Assembly: GCF_014197015.1 (NCBI RefSeq)
Contig: NZ_JACIET010000001.1
Location: 1,116,001 to 1,180,000 of the forward strand
Direction of reading: 5' to 3'
Length of the DNA stretch: 64,000 nt
From: Niveibacterium umoris
Lineage (GTDB): Bacteria > Pseudomonadota > Gammaproteobacteria > Burkholderiales > Rhodocyclaceae
Shown here: in pieces, positions 48,814 through 62,750 of the stretch
How positions within the stretch are numbered: position 1 is the stretch's first letter
Layout: every line of letters begins with the position of its first letter
Translations under genes and position numbers: made by a program
Notes under the pieces: model-generated
What the model was told of the DNA's origin: nothing
Databases searched by the model: none
What the model saw: the letters and a program-made list of their open reading frames with translations, nothing else

Positions 48814-51800
48814 TCAGAACGGATATGCCGGCATGCTGGTCTCGATGTCCAGCCACTGTCCCGTCGCCAGCTGGTTATGCTTGCCGTTGGCCAGCGCGTA
48901 GAAACCGCGGGTCGCCGCCGGCAGGCCGAGGTCGGAGATCGAGTCCAGCGCGGTCTGGCTCAACGGGATGCCGTACATCGCGAAGTGCTTGCGCATGTCC
49001 TGGCCGATGATCTTCGAACTCAGTACGTAGAACAGGTCTTCGTTGCTGATGGTGTTGTTGGCGAAGCGCCCCATCCCGTACTTGCCCTTGTTGTTGGCGT
49101 CCCAGGCTTTGGCGACAAGGCGGTCGGCTTTGGTCAGCAGCTGGAAGAATTCCAGCGTGCTATCCATCGTCGGCTTCGCCAGTCCGGCGCGCAGCTTGGC
49201 GTACTGGAAGGCCATCTGGAAATGCACGGCACGCATCGGGTCCTGGCTTGCGCCCTGCCACAGGCGCACTTCCATGTCGGCGCGCAGGGCCTCGTCGGCC
49301 AGACCGGTGCCCCGGTTGGCAACGATGTCGGCGTAGAGCCCGGTGTGGTCCAGGTTGTGACCGGTATCGACGCCAATCAGCGCGTATTCGCGCAGCATCG
49401 TTGCGCTGGCGAGGATGTTGTTGTCGCACTCGACGACGCAGCCCTTGCCGTTCGGCGCGATGTGCATCACGCGCTGCACCGTGTTATGGCCCAGCTCGTG
49501 CGCCCAGCCCCAGCCGACGTCGATGCCGGCAAAACCATCCGACGGATTCCCTGAACACAGGAAGCCGCAGGCCGCAATCCAGCCGATGAAGTGCTGCACG
49601 TTCGGTGCGCGGTGCAAGGGGCCATCGCAGGTCCAGCCAAGCTGGGTGCAGACGTTCTGGGCCAGCGCCGACATCGGCATGTTGTTGTAGCCGTTGGCAT
49701 AGTGGTTGCTGTCGAAGAGGATGCCCTTGATGCGGTCGACCACGTACACCTTCGGGTCGGTGGTGCCGATGACCTTCTGTGCGTAACCAATCGTTTGCTG
49801 GATCTCGCCGCCGACCAGTTTGCTGGTCTGCCAGCCGAAGTCGGCGCGTTTGAGCGCGGCCACCGCCTCGTCAATCTCCGCCTGCGAGGGATTGCGGGTG
49901 AAATCGAAGTGCGCATACTTCGCGGCGCCCTTGATGCGCAGCTTCACCACCGTACCGGCGGTAGCGCCGCTATACCGCAGTTCGAGCGGACCACCGAACG
50001 GGGTCACGAAGCTGTTGTCGGTGCCTGCCGTGAGCGGGATGTTGAAGGATTGCGGACGACGCGGACGGGCGTAGGTCTTGTCGGCAACCGGATCGCCGTA
50101 GCTGCGCACATAGCTCGTCTGCACGCCCAAGCCGGTCGCACCGGCGGCATCGACGATCTGGATCGTCACCGGCTTGCCCGGGATCGCGCCGCGGCCGATC
50201 AGCGTGATGCCGCTGGTCTGCGCAATGGTCACGTCGATGTCTTCGTAGCTGTTGCTCACCGCGATGCTGGCTGCGGCGGCCGGCATGTAATCGCCGGCGC
50301 CCTTGGGCGGAATGGTGGTCGTGGTGCGGTTGAACACCAACCACGAGTCCGACGCGTAGGCGCGCAGGAAGTCGTCCGAATCGCCCTTGCTTGACAGCGG
50401 CGTGCCATAGACCTGGCTGCGGCGCTGCACGTCCGCCCACAGCACGAGCAGCGGGTAGAGCTTGCTGTCCGGGTCGGCAAATACGTTGATGCCGCGCGAC
50501 TGCAAACTCGCCAACGCGCTCATCACCGCGTCGATCGGCTTCAGCGGCGTGGTATCGGTAAAGTCCAGCGTCAGGTCGGTGCGCTGCAGCAGGCCGAGGG
50601 TGGTGATCAGCGCGCCGAACTGGTCGGCTCGCGCCAGAGTGTCGGCCCGGGTGCGTCCTGAGCCGACTGATACAGCAGCGGCCGAGGCGTAATAGTTGCC
50701 CGGGTAGCCGCCCAGAGACATGCCCATCGCACCGAGCACGGTGCGGCCGCCTGTGGAGTCGATCCAGTTCGGGTGCATGTAGATCACCGACTTGCCGGCC
50801 TCGAGGTAGCGGCGCACGAGCGCGGCGAGCCCGGGGCTGTCAGTCGTCTTCGCGCCGAATACGATCAGGTTCAGCGAGCTCCAGCAGGTGTTGGTCGGGT
50901 CGTCGACCTTGCAGGTACTCAGCACCGCGTTCACGCCGGCTCGTGCGGCGAAGAGCTTGACGTTGTTGGCGTCGTAACCTGCAACGCCAACCTGCAGCGT
51001 GGCCGGTAACTTGCCAGCGCCGTTGCCGGTCACCAGCCAGGTGAATGCACGCGTGAACAGCGGAAGATGTTGCTGCTCGCGGGTCGTGCCGGCCATCCAC
51101 CCGAGCACGTCCGCTCCGTAGGCAAGGCCCCGGCCGGTGCCGACACGCGCGATGGCCGCCATGCCTGTGCCGTTGTCGGACAGGATCAGGGGCGCGGCGA
51201 TCGTCGTCTTGGTCGCGGTGATCGAGCTGCTGTTGGTGCCGTGGTTCAGGCTCAGGTCAGTCAGCTGCAGGCCATAGATGCCCTGAAGTGCGCCCTGCTG
51301 CCATTGCTGAAGCGCGCTGGCGGTGCTGATGGCCTGCGAGAGCAGGTCTTTCTGGTTGGCCGTGCTCAGGCCGCTCGGGTCACCGCTGCTCAGCGCCTTG
51401 GTGATCGGGCTAACCGTGGGCGCGGGCGGGGTGCCGGTGCCGCCGGTCGTGGTGCCGCCAGTCGAACCGCCGGTGGTCGTGCCTCCGGTGGTGGTTCCGC
51501 CCGTGGTCGTGCCTCCGGTACTCGTACCACCATTCGTGGTTCCGCCCGTCGAACCGCCTGTGGTGGTGCCACCGGCGGTCGTACCACCAGTCGCGGTTCC
51601 GCCGGTCGTGGTTCCGCCCGTCGTGGTGCCGCCGCCAGTTGCCCCGCCCGTGGTGGTGCCGCCTGTCGTAGTGCCGCCAGTCGAACCGCCTGTGGTAGTG
51701 CCACCGGTGGTCGTACCACCAGTCGCTGTTCCGCCGGTCGTTGTACCTCCCGAGGTGCTCCCGCCGTTATTGCCACCTGTTGTCGAGCCACCGCCATTGG

Positions 51801-52200
51801 TGCCTCCCGTCGCGGTGCCGCCAGTCGTTCCCGTGCCGCTACCCGACCCGGTATCGGTGCCGGCGCTGCCGCCCGAACCCGTGGTACTGCCGCTGCCGCT
51901 CGAAGCATTGTCGTCCGGCGTCCCTCCGGTCGTGGTGCCAGCGCCGATCCCGCCCGGTTCCGCGTTCGGGTCCAAGTTGCCGGCCGTCGAGCCACCGTTT
52001 CCCGGCGTGCTGCCCCCCGAGGTGCTGCCGTTGTCGGTCGAGCTGCCGCCACCGGTCCCGGTCTGGCCGCTGCCGCCACTGGCAGAGCCGTTTCCGGGGC
52101 TGGAATTTCCGTCCGAGCCGCCACCACAGGCGACGAGGAGCGCCAAGACTGCCGACGCGGCTACACGACCGATCAGGATTTTGTAGTCAGCTTTTTTCAT
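48814..52200 (-). CDS. ImpA-family lipoprotein metalloprotease with long Thr/Gly linker
   Basis: 1128 residues from ATG at 52200; the frame extends upstream without a leader. Lipoprotein signal ASAVLALLVAC (Cys25). Residues about 26-255 are an almost pure Gly/Thr/Ser linker built on GGTTTGG-like repeats. Then an ImpA-type N-terminal region, a beta domain (IPLTAGTDNSFVTPFGGPLE, VVKLRIKGAAKYAHFDF), and an M60/ImpA peptidase with the zinc motif HELGH at 901-905 (GWGWAHELGHNTVQRVMH). ImpA of Pseudomonas cleaves O-glycosylated mucin-like proteins. The lipid anchor plus a long flexible stalk suggests surface display (inference). Confidence 0.88.
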   Translation of the reverse strand: MKKADYKILIGRVAASAVLALLVACGGGSDGNSSPGNGSASGGSGQTGTGGGSSTDNGSTSGGSTPGNGGSTAGNLDPNAEPGGIGAGTTTGGTPDDNASSGSGSTTGSGGSAGTDTGSGSGTGTTGGTATGGTNGGGSTTGGNNGGSTSGGTTTGGTATGGTTTGGTTTGGSTGGTTTGGTTTGGATGGGTTTGGTTTGGTATGGTTAGGTTTGGSTGGTTNGGTSTGGTTTGGTTTGGTTTGGSTGGTTTGGTGTPPAPTVSPITKALSSGDPSGLSTANQKDLLSQAISTASALQQWQQGALQGIYGLQLTDLSLNHGTNSSSITATKTTIAAPLILSDNGTGMAAIARVGTGRGLAYGADVLGWMAGTTREQQHLPLFTRAFTWLVTGNGAGKLPATLQVGVAGYDANNVKLFAARAGVNAVLSTCKVDDPTNTCWSSLNLIVFGAKTTDSPGLAALVRRYLEAGKSVIYMHPNWIDSTGGRTVLGAMGMSLGGYPGNYYASAAAVSVGSGRTRADTLARADQFGALITTLGLLQRTDLTLDFTDTTPLKPIDAVMSALASLQSRGINVFADPDSKLYPLLVLWADVQRRSQVYGTPLSSKGDSDDFLRAYASDSWLVFNRTTTTIPPKGAGDYMPAAAASIAVSNSYEDIDVTIAQTSGITLIGRGAIPGKPVTIQIVDAAGATGLGVQTSYVRSYGDPVADKTYARPRRPQSFNIPLTAGTDNSFVTPFGGPLELRYSGATAGTVVKLRIKGAAKYAHFDFTRNPSQAEIDEAVAALKRADFGWQTSKLVGGEIQQTIGYAQKVIGTTDPKVYVVDRIKGILFDSNHYANGYNNMPMSALAQNVCTQLGWTCDGPLHRAPNVQHFIGWIAACGFLCSGNPSDGFAGIDVGWGWAHELGHNTVQRVMHIAPNGKGCVVECDNNILASATMLREYALIGVDTGHNLDHTGLYADIVANRGTGLADEALRADMEVRLWQGASQDPMRAVHFQMAFQYAKLRAGLAKPTMDSTLEFFQLLTKADRLVAKAWDANNKGKYGMGRFANNTISNEDLFYVLSSKIIGQDMRKHFAMYGIPLSQTALDSISDLGLPAATRGFYALANGKHNQLATGQWLDIETSMPAYPF
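51430..52130 (-). repeat. Thr/Gly-coding tandem repeat tract inside the ImpA-like gene
   Basis: Roughly 700 nt of imperfect repeats with units like GGTGGTACGACCACCGGT. It encodes the GGTTTGG linker, about 230 residues. Such a tract is prone to slippage, so its length may vary between strains. Confidence 0.85.
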
Positions 52201-52628
52201 TGGTTCGCCAATCAACACAAACGCCCCCGGCGCGCTCTGCGACGCGGAGTGCCAATTTGAAGGAAATTCAAACGTCTGCCCGCGCGCTTCCTCGGTCTGC
52301 GCGGCGTTCCGTCGCGGTACCACGCGCTGCGATCCGTGCGCGGGTCACGACCGTGAGGCCGAGGCCGGGTTCGCCCGCCTCGTGCATGACACCAAGGCGA
52401 GCCAGACCCAACATGGACAGCATGGTAAGAAGCGAGCCGCCCAAGGCCTACTGCATGTCTGCTCGATCGTCCTGCAGCAGCGCTCAGGGCAATACGCACC
52501 GAGCAGTGCAAGGCCGGTTCAGTGAGGCGAGAAGCGGTCGCTCCGTTGAAGAAGGAAGGCTTATTCTTCTGGTCGACAGAGGCGACCAGGTGGCAACCCG
52601 CGATCAATCGGGCGCAGTGAGGGGCGGG
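52201..52628. other. Intergenic region carrying repeat copy R1
   Basis: 428 nt between the GGDEF sensor gene end and the ImpA-like gene start. Apart from repeat R1 (52445-52485) nothing credible is coded. It should hold the ImpA-like promoter. Confidence 0.5.
52445..52485 (+). repeat. 41-nt repeat, copy R1
   Basis: The core reads GGCCTACTGC-ATGT-CTGCTCGATCGTCCTGCAG and ends CAGCGCTC. It matches R2 (56421) at 36 of 41 positions. It contains CTGCT...AGCAG able to pair and the CTGCAG palindrome. It lies 144 nt past the 3' end of the GGDEF sensor gene. Confidence 0.7.
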
Positions 52629-54245
52629 CTAGATCGTGCGGGAATCCGCCGGAGACCGATGCGAAGTCTCGTTCGCAGCATGCGGGAACGATGTCACACG
52701 GACATCATTGCGTCCGGCCTTCTTGACTTCATACATGGCGACATCTGCCCGGCGCAGCAACTCCTCAGCGCCGCAGAGTTCGTCGTTCGCAATCGTGAGC
52801 CCGATACTCGCACCGACGTGCGCGATCGCGCCGCCATCGAGTTCGATCGGTTCCAGCACGGTATTGCGGATCTTGTGGAGGATCGTCACGGCGGTGGCCT
52901 CGTCGGTGACGCCGTCGAGCACGATCACGAACTCGTCACCGCCAAGTCGCGCCAGCGTGTCGGTGCGACGCAGGCCACGTTTGAGGCGTGCCGAAACGGT
53001 CCGAAGAACATGGTCGCCCGCATCGTGACCGTAGGTGTCGTTCACCTGTTTGAACCAGTCGAGGTCGATCATCGCGATCGTGAAGCCGTCTTGCCGATCA
53101 CGCGCGTGGGACGCCACGCGATCCTTCAAGGCGCGTTCGAATCCGAGTCGGTTCAGAACCCCGGTCAGGTTATCGGTCACCGCGAGTTCCTGCGCTTCGG
53201 CCTCGGCGCGTTTGCGGTCGGTGATGTCGTTGGCAAGCCCCTGCATCGTGCCCTCGCCTGACGGCGTCAGCACGAGCTGTATCCAGCGTGAAACGCCGAT
53301 CGCGTCACGCAACTCGAAGTCACCGGAGGCGGAGCGTTCGCGCTCGAAAACGCGCTGTCGCAGGGCCGCGATCTGTGCCGCCAGCTCCGGGAGCAGTTCC
53401 TCGAGTGTCGGGTGCGCGTCGTGCCGGGTGGGCCCCCCCAGCACCCGCACGCAAGCGGGATTCCAGGATTCCATGCGGGCCTCGGCGTCGAGCGTGAAGA
53501 TACCGGTCTCCGCGTTCTCGATGATCAGTCGCAAGCGCTGCTCATCGCGCTCGCGCAATTCACGCAAGTGTCGCTCTGAAGTAATAAGGCGCGACATGCC
53601 ATCAATCAGGCGGTTGGTGTCGACAACCAGACTGCCGAGCTCGTCATGTTCGTGCCCGGGCGGGATCGCCACCGCGCCGCCGGGCCGGCCCTCGATCCGG
53701 TGCAACTCAAGCGAAATACGGCGGATCGGACGTGTCACAGCCATTGCGACCGCAAGCAGCACCGCAATCGCAACTGCCAGCACCTGCAAGCCTTGCATGG
53801 CTGCCGTGCGACTCGCGACATCGAAACGGCGCTGGCGCAGGTGCGAGTCATTGAGCTCGACCTCGATCTGGCAGACCGTCTCAGTTTTCGAGAACGGCGA
53901 ATTCACTGCACGCGTGATGACCGGATTGCTCGGCATGCTGCGGCCACCCGCCACCGCCATGACACCTTCGCGCGTACGAATCGCGGCGCGATGGATGATG
54001 CGGGTGCCGCCCAGGCCGGCGAGCGTCTCGCTGGCGAGTTGTTTGTCGGACACGAAACATGCAGCGCTCGCGGTGCCAGAAATGGCGTCAAGCAAGGTCT
54101 CGACCTGGCGATTGACCTCGGCGCGCTCCTGTTCCTGCTGGTACTGGATCGAGCCAATCGTGAAGCCCACGCCAACGACACCCGACACTGCCAGCACGAT
54201 TGCCGCAGTACGAAGTCCGATCTTGCGGGACAAGGCGAAGGCCAT
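52629..54245 (-). CDS. Membrane sensor diguanylate cyclase (CHASE8-like, HAMP, PAS, GGDEF)
   Basis: 538 residues from ATG at 54245. Membrane helix 1 (about 10-32), a periplasmic CHASE8-like domain (LLDAISGTASAACFVSDKQL), helix 2 (LQVLAVAIAVLLAVAMAV), HAMP, a PAS domain (LIIENAETGIFTLDAEARM), then a GGDEF domain with the intact active site RLGGDEFVIV and MIDLDWFKQVNDTYGHDAGD. It should make cyclic di-GMP in response to a periplasmic cue. Last gene of the cassette after the outer-membrane and phosphate-binding-like genes. Its sensor half resembles the kinase-like protein of the second cassette (58507). Confidence 0.92.
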   Translation of the reverse strand: MAFALSRKIGLRTAAIVLAVSGVVGVGFTIGSIQYQQEQERAEVNRQVETLLDAISGTASAACFVSDKQLASETLAGLGGTRIIHRAAIRTREGVMAVAGGRSMPSNPVITRAVNSPFSKTETVCQIEVELNDSHLRQRRFDVASRTAAMQGLQVLAVAIAVLLAVAMAVTRPIRRISLELHRIEGRPGGAVAIPPGHEHDELGSLVVDTNRLIDGMSRLITSERHLRELRERDEQRLRLIIENAETGIFTLDAEARMESWNPACVRVLGGPTRHDAHPTLEELLPELAAQIAALRQRVFERERSASGDFELRDAIGVSRWIQLVLTPSGEGTMQGLANDITDRKRAEAEAQELAVTDNLTGVLNRLGFERALKDRVASHARDRQDGFTIAMIDLDWFKQVNDTYGHDAGDHVLRTVSARLKRGLRRTDTLARLGGDEFVIVLDGVTDEATAVTILHKIRNTVLEPIELDGGAIAHVGASIGLTIANDELCGAEELLRRADVAMYEVKKAGRNDVRVTSFPHAANETSHRSPADSRTI

Positions 54246-54249
54246 TGCG

Positions 54250-54678
54250 TTACAACCCGAACTCGAAAACGATGCGCACCCGGGAATCGACTTTCGAGCG
54301 CTCGACATAACCCACACCACCGGGATTACGTCTCACGAAGTCCAGCACCTGCTCTGCCGAACCTGCCTGCACCGGCGGCGATGCTTGCCCGGTGAAGGTC
54401 AGTCTGACCCAGTAAGCCTTTACTTCAGCAAGATCGCGACCGAGCAGGCGCTGGTAGAACTCGGCCTTTTCGTTTCCGCCGTCGCGCGCGAGGTCAACCG
54501 GGTAGACCGGCGTGCCATCCGGCAATCTGCGGACGCGACCCATGTAGAAGTTCACCACCTGGTCCTTGGACAGGCGTTCCAGTTTGGCGACCGGATTCGC
54601 GACCACGACCAGATCCGCCGCCGCGAGCGACGGGAAGACAGCGGCCAGTACCGCGATGAGGAGCCAAAATGCTTTCAT
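54250..54678 (-). CDS. Small phosphate-binding-protein-like periplasmic protein (cassette 1)
   Basis: 142 residues with a signal peptide (LLIAVLAAVFPSLAAA). The fold resembles a short PstS-type solute-binding domain: VVVANPVAKLERLSKDQVVN, FYMGRVRRLPDG, YWVRLTFTGQASPP, VRRNPGGVGYV. It is far shorter than a full binding protein (about 340), so it likely binds a ligand or partner rather than feeding a transporter. Its paralogue in cassette 2 is at 59985. It ends 4 nt before the sensor start. Confidence 0.85.
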   Translation of the reverse strand: MKAFWLLIAVLAAVFPSLAAADLVVVANPVAKLERLSKDQVVNFYMGRVRRLPDGTPVYPVDLARDGGNEKAEFYQRLLGRDLAEVKAYWVRLTFTGQASPPVQAGSAEQVLDFVRRNPGGVGYVERSKVDSRVRIVFEFGL

Positions 54679-54683
54679 GTTCT

Positions 54684-55916
54684 TCAGAATGCGAAATCCA
54701 GCGCGGCGCTGAAGACCCAGAAGCGGAAATGGTCGGGAAGATCAGCATCCCCGAACCACAGGGTGGAACTGCGCGTACCCGACACGCGGTCGGCCTGCAG
54801 CTTCACCGCGATGTTCTGCATCGGGTCGTATCGCACACCGAGCGCAACGCTGCGTTGATCGCTGAGGTTTACCTGCAACAGTCGGTTGGCTGCCGCTTCG
54901 ACCGGAGCAAGCGCGGGCACGGGCGGCAGACCGGTCGTGGGATTCAGATCGTTCGATCGTGCGGCAGACAGCACAAGGTAAGGCGTCACCGGCCCCACCC
55001 GGTACCCCGCGTGCGCGTAGCCCGAGTAATAACCCTGGATGGCGTCGGAATTGGAGTGGAAATAGCTCGCAGCAAGAATCGCTTGCCACCCCCCCGCCTG
55101 ATAGCTTAGCGACCCGACCAGATACCCGAACTGGCGCCCCTTGACCGACAGACGATCGGCCAGCTCCGGGCCGCCCGGGATCCCGTAATCGCGCAGCACG
55201 GTGAAGAGCTCCTCGAGCGGGAGTTCATCCTTGAGCTTGATGCGTGAGTACCCGAGTCGGCCGCTCCAGGGTTCGCCCTGATACTCCAGGTAAGCGCCGA
55301 CCAGTGGCGAACCATTGAGCGAGTAATTACGCACTTCATCCACCGGAATCGTGCTGCGCGCCGTACCGATGTACGCCTTGGTCTTGATTGCCGCCGTACC
55401 GACCGGCCAGAGGTAGCTGACATCCAGGCCGTCGAGCGACTGGATCGGCAAGGTACCGTAGTATTCGGTTGGCGGCCGCACCGGGAGGTACGTGTAGCCC
55501 ACGTTGGTGGAATCGGCGAGCGGGTAGACATCAAAACCAAGTCGGCCAGCGCGCGCGGTCACACCCGCTTCCGACAGGTAGCTCAGAAAGCCCCAGGTCA
55601 GCTCCGGCCGCCAGGAGCCGTCGTAGCGGTAACGCGAAACGAGTTGCCCCACGGCGCTCCATGCGGAGAGGTACCGGTAGCTGGCCTGGATACCCACGCG
55701 GGAATCAGGTTCAAACGAGCCATGGCTGCGGCCAGTGCCCGAAGGTGCCTGCGAGACGTCGCGCCTGAAATCGGCACCCGCCACATCGGACCAGGCCCAA
55801 CCCAGCGTACCGAACCCCCCGAACTGCAAGGACTGCTCGGCCAGCGTGTCGGCGTCGCCCGCGGATGCGGCCGCACTGAACAGCGCGGCCAAAGCAATTA
55901 CACCGTGACGCACCAC
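54684..55916 (-). CDS. Outer-membrane beta-barrel protein (cassette 1)
   Basis: 410 residues from GTG at 55916 (a second GTG at 55913 has a better 8-nt distance to GGAGG). Signal peptide MVRHGVIALAALFSAAASA. The mature part alternates aromatic/hydrophobic strands and ends in Phe (FWVFSAALDFAF), typical of an outer-membrane barrel. Shared blocks with the cassette 2 protein: GFGTLG(W/I)A, LGLDVYPLADSTNVGYTY-like, RPP(T/V)E(Y/F)YG, SLDGLDV. First gene of the cassette. Confidence 0.82.
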   Translation of the reverse strand: MVRHGVIALAALFSAAASAGDADTLAEQSLQFGGFGTLGWAWSDVAGADFRRDVSQAPSGTGRSHGSFEPDSRVGIQASYRYLSAWSAVGQLVSRYRYDGSWRPELTWGFLSYLSEAGVTARAGRLGFDVYPLADSTNVGYTYLPVRPPTEYYGTLPIQSLDGLDVSYLWPVGTAAIKTKAYIGTARSTIPVDEVRNYSLNGSPLVGAYLEYQGEPWSGRLGYSRIKLKDELPLEELFTVLRDYGIPGGPELADRLSVKGRQFGYLVGSLSYQAGGWQAILAASYFHSNSDAIQGYYSGYAHAGYRVGPVTPYLVLSAARSNDLNPTTGLPPVPALAPVEAAANRLLQVNLSDQRSVALGVRYDPMQNIAVKLQADRVSGTRSSTLWFGDADLPDHFRFWVFSAALDFAF

Positions 55917-56518
55917 GTCAGCCTCCGTTACGACCAGCCAGGATTCGGTTATCGGCGCGCGGGCGCCAGACTTGAGTGCGCGTGGCGGTTGAGCGTCGAA
56001 TGCCTTTCCGGCACAGGCTGGCCGGCGCAGCTTGCAGCTTGATGCCACCGCGCATATCGGCCGACCCCCCCTCGTCGCACATGCGATGGCGCATCGCTGA
56101 GATCAGCGCGCTAGCGGCCTCGTTACCGGGCACAGCGCCATCGACGCGACAAATCGTCTCGTTCATCATCACTTCGGCTCTCTTCAACGTTGCGTTCCTG
56201 CTCGCCAACCACCCACCTGCATTCCTGTGTGGCGCGGGCATTTGAATCACATCGGCCATCTGCCCCGCTCCCATTGCTGGTTTTCACCACGTCTGCCCGG
56301 AATGACCTCTCCGGTAAGTCGCGCAACGACGACGCGCTTGTCAGTCATCCAGCGCCATCCAACTGCATGATCGTGGCGAAGACCAACGATATGCGGCATC
56401 CTAGAAAGATCGCCGCGCGTGGCCTACTGCAAACCTGCTCGATCATCCTGCAGCAGTGCTCCTCAGCCGCGGAAGTTCAAACAGGGGCTCGAATGCGCGG
56501 CGAGGTGCGAACGCGAAG
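55917..56518. other. Divergent intergenic region with repeat copy R2
   Basis: About 600 nt between the cassette 1 outer-membrane gene (minus) and the AraC-HDOD gene (plus). It holds repeat R2 (56421-56461). A minus-strand frame (55918-56274) has no leader, ribosome site or known motif and is not called. Confidence 0.5.
56421..56461 (+). repeat. 41-nt repeat, copy R2
   Basis: The core begins GGCCTACTGCAAACCTGCTC and ends CAGCAGTGCTC. It matches R1 at 36/41 and R3 at 35/41. Weaker similarity among the copies extends about 35 nt upstream. It ends 57 nt before the AraC-HDOD start. With R1, it flanks cassette 1 in direct orientation. Confidence 0.7.
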
Positions 56519-58297
56519 ATGAGCGACGAACTCGAGCATGATTACGTGCCGGAGATGCGGCACTACCAGCCATTTTTTCTGCGCTACCGCGATCAGCCGG
56601 TTCGATTGAGCATTCTTCAGTCTCATTTCGGACTGGTAAGAGTCAGCCCTTCCGACGCACGTCCGCTGAGTGCCGAAACCGCGCTTCAGATGAGTGAATG
56701 GCTCCACGCGAACGGCGACCCGCACGCGTTCGCCTGGCTTGCTTCCGAGTTGGACATGGGCGCCGGAGACGGGCTGGTTTACTACCTCCGCGCACATGAC
56801 AGTCTGGAAGCCGCGCTTGAGGAATTCACGCGCCTTACCGCCTTGCTGCTGCCCGACGGGCGGATCGCCTGGAGCAGCGACGGCCATCGCCTGCACATCA
56901 CCCTGGCGCCGGTGCGGCAAGCGACGCGACTGGGCGTGCGCTTGCGTTACGAATCGATCCTGGTTTGGTTTGTGCGCGTGCTCAACTACGTCACCAGCTC
57001 GGAATTGCCGATTTCGCAGATACAGGTGATGTCCCACGAGGGCGCCAACCCGGCGGTTCTGGCTACGTACCTGGGTGTGAGGCCCTCCCTTGGCGGCGAG
57101 GAATTCGTCCTGGAGTACCCCGCCGAAGTATTGAAGATCCACTTGCCGGGTGCGAGTGCCGCCTTGCGCAACACGATTCGCCCGCTCTACGACCAACGCC
57201 TCACCCTTACGAAAAAGGACCATGGCAATACGACCCGGGTCGCAAGCAGGGTCGCGAACTGGATGTCGAAGCTCGATGACCTGAGCGACGCCAACCTCGA
57301 CGCGGCTGCAAGCGCCTTGGCGGTTGGCGCGAGCACGCTGCGTCGCCAGCTGGCGGAACAGGGTTGCCGCTTCTCCGCCCTGCTCGCCGCCATGCGCGCG
57401 CATCAGGCGATGAACGCGATTCTCGGCTCGGACGAAAAGATGGAGAGCCTCGCGCAACGGCTTGGCTATGCCGATCGCAATACCTTCGAGCGCGCCTTCC
57501 GCGAGCGCTTCGATGTCACGCCTGCGCTATGCCGGCGCGCCGCACGCGAGTTGCTGTCCGCCCGACGTTTCGCAACTTGGAGTGCCCCCCAGAACTGGTC
57601 GCGCCACAGTCCCTCGCTTGCGCGATTGAGAAGCGCCCTCGCCGACGGCAGCGGCGATGCCAACACCTGGCTCGAATCGCTCGAGCGCGATCCTGTGCTC
57701 CTGTTGCGAATCCTCGCCCATTGCGCGGAACCGGCACAGGGCGCGAGCGAGACCTGCATTGTGGACACGGAACTGCTTGCGTCGCTGTCGCCACGGACGC
57801 TCCTGACCCTGGTCGAAGCATGCGTCCCGATGGCGAGTGGCACGCGGGCAATGCCGACGCAAGAGGGAGAAGACATCTGGCGTTGCGGCGAACTTGCGTC
57901 CCGCGCGGCGCGACTGATCGCCGGGCAACTCGCGCCGGCAGACGCGCCCGTTATCGCCCTCGCCGCCTTTGCACACAACCTCGGGGCCCTAGTGATCCCC
58001 GCGCAGGCGGATGCCGTCGTCGAGGGCATTGATTGCACCTGGTTGCTGCTGGCGGCGTGGCATGTACCCGCGCAACTGCTGCGCTTCTTGCGCGCCCGCC
58101 ATGCCCCCATGGACGCCGCGGGCGAAGCGCTGGCGCTAGCGATCGCGTGGGCGGAGGCAGCAACAACCGGCAAGGCCGCGAAGAGGCGCGCCGAGGTCGA
58201 AGCTCGGATTGCGGCACGGCTCAATTGGGATCTTGCTGACGCGCTGACAGACCTGCTACATGCTGATTCCGGCGCCGCGTTGAGCGAACAGGAGTGA
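56519..58297 (+). CDS. AraC-type regulator fused to an HDOD-like domain
   Basis: 592 residues from ATG at 56519 (no strong ribosome site; an upstream in-frame start at 56456 is possible). Residues 1-220 are an AraC 'arabinose-binding'-type effector domain (LASELDMGAGDGLVYYLRAH). Residues 230-350 are the AraC helix-turn-helix pair (VGASTLRRQLAEQGCRFSAL; ESLAQRLGYADRNTFERAFR). After a linker, about 390-560 resembles an HDOD signalling domain (DPVLLLRILAHCAE, LSPRTLLTLVEACV, WRCGELASRAARLIAGQL, FAHNLGALVIPAQ). AraC-HDOD fusions are unusual. It lies between the two sensor cassettes and may regulate them. Confidence 0.8.
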   Translation: MSDELEHDYVPEMRHYQPFFLRYRDQPVRLSILQSHFGLVRVSPSDARPLSAETALQMSEWLHANGDPHAFAWLASELDMGAGDGLVYYLRAHDSLEAALEEFTRLTALLLPDGRIAWSSDGHRLHITLAPVRQATRLGVRLRYESILVWFVRVLNYVTSSELPISQIQVMSHEGANPAVLATYLGVRPSLGGEEFVLEYPAEVLKIHLPGASAALRNTIRPLYDQRLTLTKKDHGNTTRVASRVANWMSKLDDLSDANLDAAASALAVGASTLRRQLAEQGCRFSALLAAMRAHQAMNAILGSDEKMESLAQRLGYADRNTFERAFRERFDVTPALCRRAARELLSARRFATWSAPQNWSRHSPSLARLRSALADGSGDANTWLESLERDPVLLLRILAHCAEPAQGASETCIVDTELLASLSPRTLLTLVEACVPMASGTRAMPTQEGEDIWRCGELASRAARLIAGQLAPADAPVIALAAFAHNLGALVIPAQADAVVEGIDCTWLLLAAWHVPAQLLRFLRARHAPMDAAGEALALAIAWAEAATTGKAAKRRAEVEARIAARLNWDLADALTDLLHADSGAALSEQE

Positions 58298-58506: not shown

Positions 58507-59988
58507 TTAGTCCCGCGCGCGCATTGGAATATCGAGGGTCAGCGTGGTGCCCTTGCCGTCCTCGCTCTCGGCACGAACGCCGCCACCGAGCACGTTCTCA
58601 ACGATATTGCGCACCACATACAAACCCAGGCCGGACCCGCCAATACCGAACTTGGTGGTGAAAAAAGGCTCGAAAATGCGCGGCAGATTGGCTGCCGGAA
58701 TGCCGCAGCCATTGTCGCCCACCGAGATCCGCACATTGTGCACATCAACCCGCCAGCCGCGCACGGTCACGGTGCCGGCGGACCGCCCCGCGAAGCCGTG
58801 GACAATCGCGTTCTCGACGAGATTGGAAAGCGCTTGACTGAGCGGATCAGGATAGCTCAACAAGGTCAGGTCCTTGGGGACGTCGACGACGATCGCATAG
58901 GCGCTGTCACCGCGCCCCTCCCGAATGGTCGCCACGGTATCTTCCACGATCTGACGCAGATCGAAGACTTGCGGTTTTTCACTCCGGATCTCGACCGCCA
59001 CACTCCTGAAGTTCTTCAGGAAATCCGAGACGCGCTGTACGTTGCGCAGAAGGAAATCGGCGCCACACTTGGCGTCAGCAATGAATCCATCCAGATCCGA
59101 TCGCTTGATGCCACTGGCGGCGATCTTGCTGATTTCGCCTGAGCGTTCTACGAGCGTCGTCGCGACTGCCAGACTGATGTCAATCGGCTTGCTGAGTTCC
59201 AGCGAAACCCCTTCCACCAGCGACCCGAGCGCCGCCATCTTCTCGGAGCGCATCAACTCAAGCTGAGTGGCCTGCAACTCACGTGCGCTCTCCTCGACGC
59301 CGACCCGCAGGCCACGCTCGGTTTCAATGCTGACAGCAATGCGATCCAGAAGCTGGTTGAACGTGCCGATCAGGGCTCCCACTTCAGTTGCTTGAAGCAA
59401 TGGCGGGCACTGCACACGCGCAGAACTGCCAGGTTCGATTTCCCCGATCTGCTGCGTAACCCGTGCAAGATTGCGCGACAAGACTTGGCGGATGATCTGC
59501 ATCGAAATGAGCGCACTCAGACAGATCAGACCGAATATCCATGCGACCAGTTCGAGTGCCGACTGTCGGGCGCGATCAGCAACCCAATCGGCATTCGCCC
59601 CAACCTCCAGGGTGCCAACTTGTTCGGTGCTGAGGAAAGGTGAGCGAATCGGGTATTGCTGGATACCCGAAATTTCGGTAGCACCAGCCCGCTTGCGAAA
59701 CGCGAGTGTGCTGTTGTTGCCGATCAACCTGGCGCTCGCAACCACCTCATTGTTGAGCAGACCGGACACCACGTCATTTGCGATTTCGATATTGCCGGCA
59801 AAGGCGGCCACCGCCGCTGATCGCTCCACCGTCGCCACCAGACTCTGCACCATTTCTGCGCTTTCCTGCGCCGAATGCCGGTACTGCATCACATAGACGA
59901 AAAGGCCTGCGACGATCGCAAGCACCAACGCCGTTCCGCCAACGAGCGCGGACAGCAGCCCTTCGAGGGTGTGAAAACGCAGGCTCAT
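58507..59988 (-). CDS. CHASE8/HAMP sensor with histidine-kinase ATPase but no phospho-acceptor His (cassette 2)
   Basis: 493 residues. Membrane helix 1 (about 12-35), a CHASE8-like periplasmic domain (LVATVERSAAVAAFAGNIEI), helix 2 (about 145-165), HAMP, coiled coil, then a kinase module. The ATPase boxes are intact: SNLVENAIVHGFAG (N), DNGCGIPAANLPRIFEPFF (G1/F), GSGLGLYVVRN (G2). The dimerisation motif reads ALGSLVEGVSLELSKPID: Leu263 stands where family members have the phosphorylated His (GVAHELNTPI). The codon is CTG, not CAC/CAT. It cannot act as a normal histidine kinase; it may be a pseudokinase or phosphatase/scaffold. Start overlaps the previous gene by 4 nt. Confidence 0.9.
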   Translation of the reverse strand: MSLRFHTLEGLLSALVGGTALVLAIVAGLFVYVMQYRHSAQESAEMVQSLVATVERSAAVAAFAGNIEIANDVVSGLLNNEVVASARLIGNNSTLAFRKRAGATEISGIQQYPIRSPFLSTEQVGTLEVGANADWVADRARQSALELVAWIFGLICLSALISMQIIRQVLSRNLARVTQQIGEIEPGSSARVQCPPLLQATEVGALIGTFNQLLDRIAVSIETERGLRVGVEESARELQATQLELMRSEKMAALGSLVEGVSLELSKPIDISLAVATTLVERSGEISKIAASGIKRSDLDGFIADAKCGADFLLRNVQRVSDFLKNFRSVAVEIRSEKPQVFDLRQIVEDTVATIREGRGDSAYAIVVDVPKDLTLLSYPDPLSQALSNLVENAIVHGFAGRSAGTVTVRGWRVDVHNVRISVGDNGCGIPAANLPRIFEPFFTTKFGIGGSGLGLYVVRNIVENVLGGGVRAESEDGKGTTLTLDIPMRARD

Positions 59989-60421: not shown

Positions 60422-61693
60422 TCAGAACAGGACATCAACGGTTACGGTCAAGACACAGGTATCGACGCGCAAGGGCGTGACATCGCTCAAGCCGGCGCCC
60501 TGCCGGTACCAGAGCCAACGGCCCTCTGGCGGCGCCGATACGCTATCGATCTGGAATTTCAGCGCCACATTGTTTGCAACATCCCCGCGCGCGCCGAAAG
60601 ACCAAGTGCGCTGGGTCATGCCGCGCTGGTTGATGGCGGCGGAGCCCGCTGCCCAGAGCGGCGTCAGCAAAGGATTGGCCGGTTGCGCGAGTGTAATGCT
60701 CCGGTGGTCGGTACTGTTGGCGTACATCACATACGGTAACCAGGCCCCGAAGCGATAACCCACGCTCAGATAGGCCTTGTTCCCGCGCGGCAATGACAGG
60801 CGTTCCACCGAAGTGCGGCTGAGTTCTCCGATCACTTGCCAGCGCCCGTCGTCATAGGACGCACCGATGCCGGTATAGGTCAGGTCGGTGTCGCGAACCT
60901 TGAAGGCGTCCAGCAAAGTAGCTGCCTGCGGCCACACTGGAAGGGCCATCTGCAATCCATCCGTAAGATCGCTTGGCGCCGCGTAATCGAGATCAAGGCG
61001 CGATCGTGTGTAACCCAAGCGCCAGCGCCAATACAGGTTCTCCCAACTGATATTGAGGCCCACTGCAGGCGATACGGCGAACTGGATCGGGGTGCTGGTC
61101 AGCTTGACGTCGGCAGCTTGAGAGCGGCCCGCGAAGAACTTGGTTTTGAGTTGGCCTTCACCGAGACTCGTCCACCAGGTCACGTCGCCCCCATCAAGCG
61201 AGTACAAGGGCAGCCAGCCATAGAATTCAACCGGCGGCCGGACCCAAGAGTAGGTGTAGGAGATATTGCGCTGATCTGAGAGCAAGAAGAGGTCGAGACC
61301 CACTCGCCCAAGTCGAAACGTGGTCGCGGGAATCGGCTCCCACTTCCCAAACGCCCACTCCACGCTGTTGTTGAGCGTGTTATTGACCTTGTCGCGCGCC
61401 ACCACCTGACCCACCAGTTCCAGGTCAGACAACAGCCGGTAGTTCAGTTGAAGTCCGAGTCGGCTGTCCTGACGCGCCGAAACGCGATCGATCTCGTCGA
61501 TGTTCTGCGAAATTTCCCGGATGAATGGCATGCCCGCCTGACTGCTGTAGGCGATGCCCAGGGTGCCGAACCCGTGCAGAGAAAAGTCTGAATCGAGCGC
61601 GCCAATCTCAGCCGCCTGCGCAAACGAACAAACCAGAACAATGGCCGCAAGACCTGCACGAAGCATTGACTCACCCACTCTTTTAAACGACAT
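60422..61693 (-). CDS. Outer-membrane beta-barrel protein (cassette 2)
   Basis: 423 residues from ATG at 61693; an internal ATG at 61666 also gives a complete signal peptide (RAGLAAIVLVCSFAQA). The mature part shows barrel-like strands and ends in Phe (TVTVDVLF). It aligns in blocks with the cassette 1 barrel: LHGFGTLGIAYSS, RVGLDLFLLSDQRNISYTYS, VRPPVEFYGWLPLYSLDGGD. Substrate unknown. It lies 2 nt upstream of the binding-protein-like gene. Confidence 0.82.
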   Translation of the reverse strand: MSFKRVGESMLRAGLAAIVLVCSFAQAAEIGALDSDFSLHGFGTLGIAYSSQAGMPFIREISQNIDEIDRVSARQDSRLGLQLNYRLLSDLELVGQVVARDKVNNTLNNSVEWAFGKWEPIPATTFRLGRVGLDLFLLSDQRNISYTYSWVRPPVEFYGWLPLYSLDGGDVTWWTSLGEGQLKTKFFAGRSQAADVKLTSTPIQFAVSPAVGLNISWENLYWRWRLGYTRSRLDLDYAAPSDLTDGLQMALPVWPQAATLLDAFKVRDTDLTYTGIGASYDDGRWQVIGELSRTSVERLSLPRGNKAYLSVGYRFGAWLPYVMYANSTDHRSITLAQPANPLLTPLWAAGSAAINQRGMTQRTWSFGARGDVANNVALKFQIDSVSAPPEGRWLWYRQGAGLSDVTPLRVDTCVLTVTVDVLF

Positions 61694-61877
61694 CCGATCA
61701 CCCAAATACGAACCCGCTTGCAACCGCCCTTGGAACGCGCTCATTCGCGCGCTTCAGGAAAGGGCGTCATCGCCCCTCTGGGTGCCTTTCAACGATCGAC
61801 AACATTGCGCAACCGCTTCGTTCAAAAATCATGGCAAGCCGCGCATAACCGCACGTTTCAAATCAGCCGCATGGCCA

Positions 61878-62549: not shown

Positions 62550-62750
62550 GGGCGCACACGCACCATGCAGGCCCTCACGCCTTCACTGCTGCGGGCGTGG
62601 ATGCTGCCGCCCAGAACGTCGACCACCACTTTCCGGAAGATGTAGAACGCAGGCCCGGGCCCCCACCAAGTCGCGAATGAAGAAGGGATCCAACATGCGC
62701 GCCAGGTGCATCGCTCGAACTCCACATCCAACGTCCGCCATGCCGATCCG
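62550..62750 (-). pseudogene. Remnant of a cassette-type histidine kinase ATPase domain
   Basis: Minus-strand translation gives RIGMADVGCGVRAMHLARML-DPFF in one frame, then GPGPAFYIFRKVVVDVLGGS-IHAR in another, after a shift within the GGGGGCCCGGG run near 62655-62665. It aligns with the cassette 2 sensor (RISVGDNGCGIPAANLPRIF-EPFF; GSGLGLYVVRNIVENVLGGG-VRAE). Only about 65 residues survive and the upstream part is not recognisable, so it is a decayed third sensor. Confidence 0.75.

Follow-up and report, generated by a model that had tools for sequence, protein, structure and literature searches.

The window analysed here (64,000 nucleotides of the Niveibacterium umoris genome) carries on its reverse strand a cassette in which a porin-like gene is followed by a gene for a small protein and then by a gene for a membrane protein resembling a histidine kinase (Table 1). 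The open reading frame that a previous inspection of the sequence alone (hereafter the sequence-only reading) had assigned to such a protein is real, and its product matched Pfam HATPase_c (E = 4.4e-28) and, weakly, HAMP. Its H-box motif is GSLVEGVSLELSKPID, which compares with GVAHQLGEPIGN in the ortholog of a sister species and with GVAHELNTPIGN as the consensus of its paralogs.

Table 1. Features of the kinase-like gene, its cassette and the surrounding part of the window.
Feature	Position	Strand	Remark
Membrane histidine-kinase-like gene (putative pseudokinase)	58507..59988	-	ORF from ATG, 493 aa
Domains of the kinase-like protein			Sensor/TM ~1-165, HAMP-like linker ~169-217, DHp ~229-335, CA ATPase ~380-490
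N-terminal sensor/TM/HAMP-like part, residues 1-237	59278..59988	-	Common to diguanylate cyclases of other porin cassettes
Dimerisation-helix stretch, residues 229-261	59206..59304	-	32/33 identical in ortholog
Altered H-box core, residues 262-272 (SLELSKPIDIS)	59173..59205	-	
Leu263 codon CTG at phospho-acceptor position	59200..59202	-	+ strand reads cag
Small protein, 144 aa	59985..60419	-	4-base overlap with start of kinase-like gene
Outer-membrane porin-like protein, first cassette gene	60422..61744	-	Pfam Porin_4 E = 1.8e-6; conserved upstream in sister species
AraC-type neighbour, convergent with kinase-like gene	56456..58297	+	AraC-type N-terminal domain, HTH, then degenerate HDOD-like domain
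Second cassette	52629..56048	-	Porin-like gene, 142-aa small protein, membrane diguanylate cyclase
1169-aa protein	48814..52323	-	
Relic of a histidine kinase CA domain	62679..62750	-	Upstream of porin; 24 aa, 50% identical

The 144-residue protein is probably periplasmic; a signal-like N-terminal stretch was recognised by eye, and the protein is 74% identical in the sister species. It matched no family in Pfam (E ≤ 1) or NCBIfam (E ≤ 0.01), so that the cassette shows no periplasmic partner of the YfiR family. The source genome has nine copies of this gene, each adjoining a porin-like gene. In the second cassette of the window, the small protein is related to the 144-residue one, and the diguanylate cyclase contains a PAS domain and a weak CHASE8 match. 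In the source genome, a single further cassette is followed by a kinase (L225), which was set aside as unrelated, being a HHRVKNN-type cytoplasmic kinase with a response regulator. A CHASE8-containing paralog (L106) was likewise rejected as a cassette mate, since BLAST revealed no porin or small-protein gene in its 9-kb region. The genes next to the kinase-like gene and its cassette are an AraC-type gene, conserved in the sister species (L091), and a Crp-type gene; neither a partner kinase nor a response regulator adjoins it. Elsewhere in the window, the 1169-residue protein carries, close to its N terminus, an extended Gly/Thr/Ser repeat region of the GGTTTGGT type, and it also has a metalloprotease-like HELGHN motif. 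A search of the literature for cassettes combining a porin, a periplasmic protein and CHASE8 retrieved no relevant description.

The replacement of the acceptor histidine by Leu263, already pointed out by the sequence-only reading, was confirmed. In a BLAST-based comparison of 115 homologous kinase domains, from which redundant copies had been removed and in which the rows spanning the H-box were kept, histidine occupied the aligned column in 114, the sole exception being the 493-residue protein; outside the ortholog pair, the count was 113/113. A stricter MAFFT alignment of 102 domains gave the same picture, with the acceptor histidine present in 100/100 kinases besides the pair, among them 20 paralogous kinases of the same genome. 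No other histidine is available in the DHp domain, the histidines of the whole protein lying solely at residues 6, 38, 397 and 417, which rules out an alternative histidine acceptor within this domain. As the DHp domain is also devoid of tyrosine, the earlier idea of a different acceptor found no backing in the sequence. An error of sequencing or assembly, for which nothing speaks beyond the rarity of Leu263 itself, is extremely improbable: CTG lies two base changes away from the CAT of the ortholog and thus does not result from one misread base, several neighbouring conserved residues are changed as well, and the frame is intact within a 2.7-Mb contig.

The H-box indeed departs from its relatives at more than the acceptor. 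Further substitutions are A262S, N266S and T267K, plus A259E, the last being common to the ortholog; Glu259 was seen in 0/100 of the other kinases. Alanine scanning of CrdS, together with assays of three other HisKA kinases, showed that an acidic residue at H+1 is needed for kinase activity and Thr or Asn at H+4 for phosphatase activity (PMC3510030). Judged by these features, the Leu263 protein has no acceptor histidine, retains the H+1 acidic residue (Glu264) and has Lys267 in place of Thr, Asn or Ser at H+4. Among the other kinases of the MAFFT alignment, all three features (histidine, acidic H+1 and Thr, Asn or Ser at H+4) were found together in 94/100, one was missing in six and two in none; H+4 was Thr, Asn or Ser in 97 of them. 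A charged residue at H+4 is common to both orthologs (Lys267 here, Glu in the sister species), and no charged residue, Lys and Glu included, occurs there in any of the 100 others. Pfam HisKA matched neither the Leu263 protein nor its ortholog at E ≤ 1, and the five paralogs scanned all gave HisKA matches, each below threshold.

A full-length ortholog was present in two of the seven genomes of the genus, the source genome included, the other copy belonging to a different species (G006). The two proteins are 67% identical over their whole length, and gene order is conserved, including the operon and the convergent AraC-type neighbour. No further full-length ortholog was detected among 395 genomes of the family or 399 of the order, searches in which three candidates were scored per genome, so that a weak ortholog could be missed; a sensor-only search (385 genomes, up to seven candidates scored per genome, best 30 loci read) makes such an omission less likely within the family. 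A search of genome contigs returned distant kinases only (80 loci, 24-41% identity), and four hybrid kinases (L092-L095) were discarded as orthologs because their match was limited to the kinase half. In the source genome itself, kinase relatives lie at 58 places at E ≤ 0.001, the Leu263 gene included.

The ortholog bears His263 (codon CAT), followed by Gln264, Gly266 and Glu267. Gln at H+1 is known from 2/100 other kinases in the MAFFT alignment (4/115 in the BLAST comparison, where the sister ortholog is counted), and the sister protein may thus be an active kinase. This counts against the pseudokinase reading, since the sole ortholog found has the histidine. The sequence-only reading had named His-bearing orthologs, in the case of a single-strain mutation, as evidence against its proposal; the histidine is there, but the H+1 acidic residue and the H+4 Thr or Asn are absent, so that a mutation confined to one strain, in a kinase that is normal in other respects, is not the better reading. 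On the simplest account, which draws on two sequences, phosphatase chemistry would have disappeared in the common ancestor of the two species. The loss of kinase chemistry would have followed their separation, with certainty in the Leu263 protein and perhaps also in its ortholog.

How unusual this divergence is was evaluated by pairing the kinase domains of both genomes by reciprocal best hit, which yielded 17 pairs, 16 of them controls. Within core residues 262-271, the Leu263 protein and its ortholog share 3/10 residues, while the control pairs (54-89% identical overall) share 10/10 in 13 cases and 9/10 in three, i.e., 7/10 differences versus 3/160 (Fisher P = 1.9e-8). Windows near residues 101-110 and 349-357 diverge more from the ortholog than the H-box does, which is thus remarkable for being normally invariant in other kinases and not for being the fastest part of the protein. 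Over 41 columns conserved at ≥75%, the Leu263 protein departs at residues 259, 262, 263, 266 and 483, which amounts to 3/5 in the H-box versus 1/27 in the CA domain (P = 0.008). The sister ortholog departs at 259, 264, 266, 385, 446 and 483, with 2/5 versus 3/27, a difference which is not significant (P = 0.16).

Comparison with this single ortholog, from which the maintenance of the gene is judged, gave dN/dS values of ~0.15 for the whole gene, 0.15 for the CA domain and 0.17 for DHp, compared with 0.11 for the small protein and 0.12 for the porin, all of them rough because dS is near saturation. The Leu263 gene is, by this estimate, under purifying selection, the pairwise values being compatible with a recent relaxation on the Leu263 branch alone. 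A rival explanation is early gene decay, in which this lineage no longer needed the kinase and the histidine was lost first, the remainder not yet having had time to decay. In line with decay, the sister species retains the histidine, the gene is rare (see the genome counts above), and a frameshifted relic of the CA domain of another kinase lies about 1 kb upstream, an indication that kinase genes do decay here. This relic continues in a different frame to about position 62600 with a VLGG..HARSSEG-like stretch. Decay is nevertheless an unlikely explanation, considering that several H-box changes were gathered while 26/27 conserved CA columns were kept, that the box of the ortholog is non-canonical too, and that nothing interrupts the open frame, the dimerisation helix also being nearly identical (Table 1).

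The preservation of the ATP-binding part, by contrast with the H-box, is clear. The N, G1, F and G2 boxes are intact, as the sequence-only reading had stated, and the sole departure among the 27 conserved CA columns is residue 483, Leu for Phe, a position replaced in the ortholog too. An AlphaFold2 monomer model of residues 222-493, computed with 43 distant kinases, showed a DHp of two helices along with a CA domain (mean pLDDT 89.9, pTM 0.75) and placed Leu263 (model residue 42) within a helix spanning model residues 2-71. Foldseek retrieved HK853 structures as the best solved matches, with DivL (4q20) also among the nearest folds and, likewise, among the sequence matches. As modelled, the Leu263 protein has retained the histidine kinase fold. 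These intact CA motifs, together with the 20 paralogous kinase domains of the same genome, whose dimerisation helices are related, could suit a protein that is active by another route, its CA domain phosphorylating either an acceptor of unusual type within the same chain or, in a mixed dimer, the histidine of a partner kinase. We regard this as quite improbable, as the DHp domain offers neither His nor Tyr, its helix is identical to those of the paralogs of its own genome at just 6-19 of 33 positions, so that mixed dimers are not assured, and no kinase or response-regulator gene is adjacent.

Relatives of the sensor half (residues 1-237) occur in 82/385 genomes of the family, and 27 of the 30 best-scoring loci have a GGDEF output, kinase output among these 30 being limited to the Leu263 protein and its ortholog, plus a hybrid kinase of genome G330. 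A kinase core has thus been attached to a type of sensor whose usual output is c-di-GMP synthesis. In the G330 locus (L155), the same sensor type has been independently joined to a hybrid kinase of canonical type, which has a receiver domain and an intact HDLRQP box and is encoded divergently from a gene for a porin and from the first part of one for a small protein. Exchange of outputs has been described for YfiBNR-type cassettes, where the sensor is combined in different species with GGDEF, GGDEF-EAL, HPT or sensor kinase outputs (PMC3375315). The present cassette resembles them in its outer-membrane, periplasmic and inner-membrane set, with a sensor part common to diguanylate cyclases and a linked small gene, but the periplasmic partner matches no family in Pfam or NCBIfam, and the place of YfiB is taken by a porin. 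NCBIfam NF053592 ("HK near YfiR-like") matched the Leu263 protein at E = 4.4e-6, far below the cut-off, a weak hint in the direction of such output exchange, and did not match the ortholog at E ≤ 1; CHASE8 gave no match in the Leu263 protein, while the neighbouring cyclase has a weak one, below the cut-off. Kinship of the porin cassette with Yfi is at most weakly indicated.

Three degenerate or pseudo histidine kinases emerged from a literature search, namely DivL, RocA and ChrS; no case with leucine was among the matches listed, although one may exist in print. DivL of Caulobacter has Tyr550 at the acceptor position, is neither a kinase nor a phosphatase, and signals by binding (PMC4211667). 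The Leu263 protein shares with it a histidine kinase fold with a residue other than histidine at this position; it differs in having Leu instead of Tyr, a sensor that faces the periplasm and belongs to a porin cassette instead of the PAS sensors, and intact ATP motifs instead of the weak ATP binding described in that account. It is not an ortholog of DivL. RocA of group A Streptococcus is a membrane histidine-kinase-like accessory protein which acts via CovS and whose acceptor position is dispensable (PMC7028121); it has the histidine (H246) and is described there as devoid of several CA-domain residues, the reverse of the Leu263 protein. A kinase-dead ChrS variant of Corynebacterium glutamicum still modulates signalling through the sister kinase HrrS, and two-hybrid heterodimers were reported for native ChrS with HrrS and not for the truncated variant (PMC9491836). 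Unlike the Leu263 protein, this variant stems from a laboratory-evolved frameshift in the CA domain. Judged from its sequence, the Leu263 protein is of the DivL/RocA kind, a histidine kinase homolog without a catalytic residue whose gene is maintained.

Altogether, the Leu263 protein is probably an old, maintained signalling pseudokinase, neither a fresh mutation nor, so far, a dead gene. With the histidine lost and the ATP-binding part intact, it probably signals without phosphorylating itself. The earlier interpretation is thus supported in part: its proposal of a pseudokinase or regulator that binds ATP without normal autophosphorylation fits the CA motifs, the purifying selection, the changed H-box and the DHp domain without His, its ATP binding and inactivity being deduced from sequence. 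From a mechanistic point of view, the porin, the small periplasmic protein and the inner-membrane sensor would together make up a cassette for envelope sensing. The output half of the Leu263 protein may derive from the large GVAHELNTPIG kinase family of the organism, with phospho-chemistry lost afterwards. The protein would still dimerise and bind ATP, without autophosphorylation, and its conformation could relay the state of the sensor to a partner protein. By analogy with proposals for RocA-CovS and HrrS-ChrS, it might form mixed dimers with a paralogous kinase or otherwise modulate it; alternatively, as for DivL, it might dock a response regulator. A more specific scenario, which we put forward tentatively and hold to be doubtful, is that a c-di-GMP sensor was rewired to a kinase core which then became an ATP-binding pseudokinase through different catalytic losses in the sister species, ATP-dependent conformation rather than phosphate carrying an outer-membrane signal to one of many paralogous kinases.

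To our knowledge, only a small number of histidine pseudokinases from bacteria have been investigated, and in the most familiar one the ATP site works poorly. Combining an intact ATP site, a missing acceptor, a His-bearing sister and a recognisable sensor cassette, the Leu263 protein could be used to test the effect that ATP binding by itself has on a kinase core, and the path by which pseudokinases arise from kinases.
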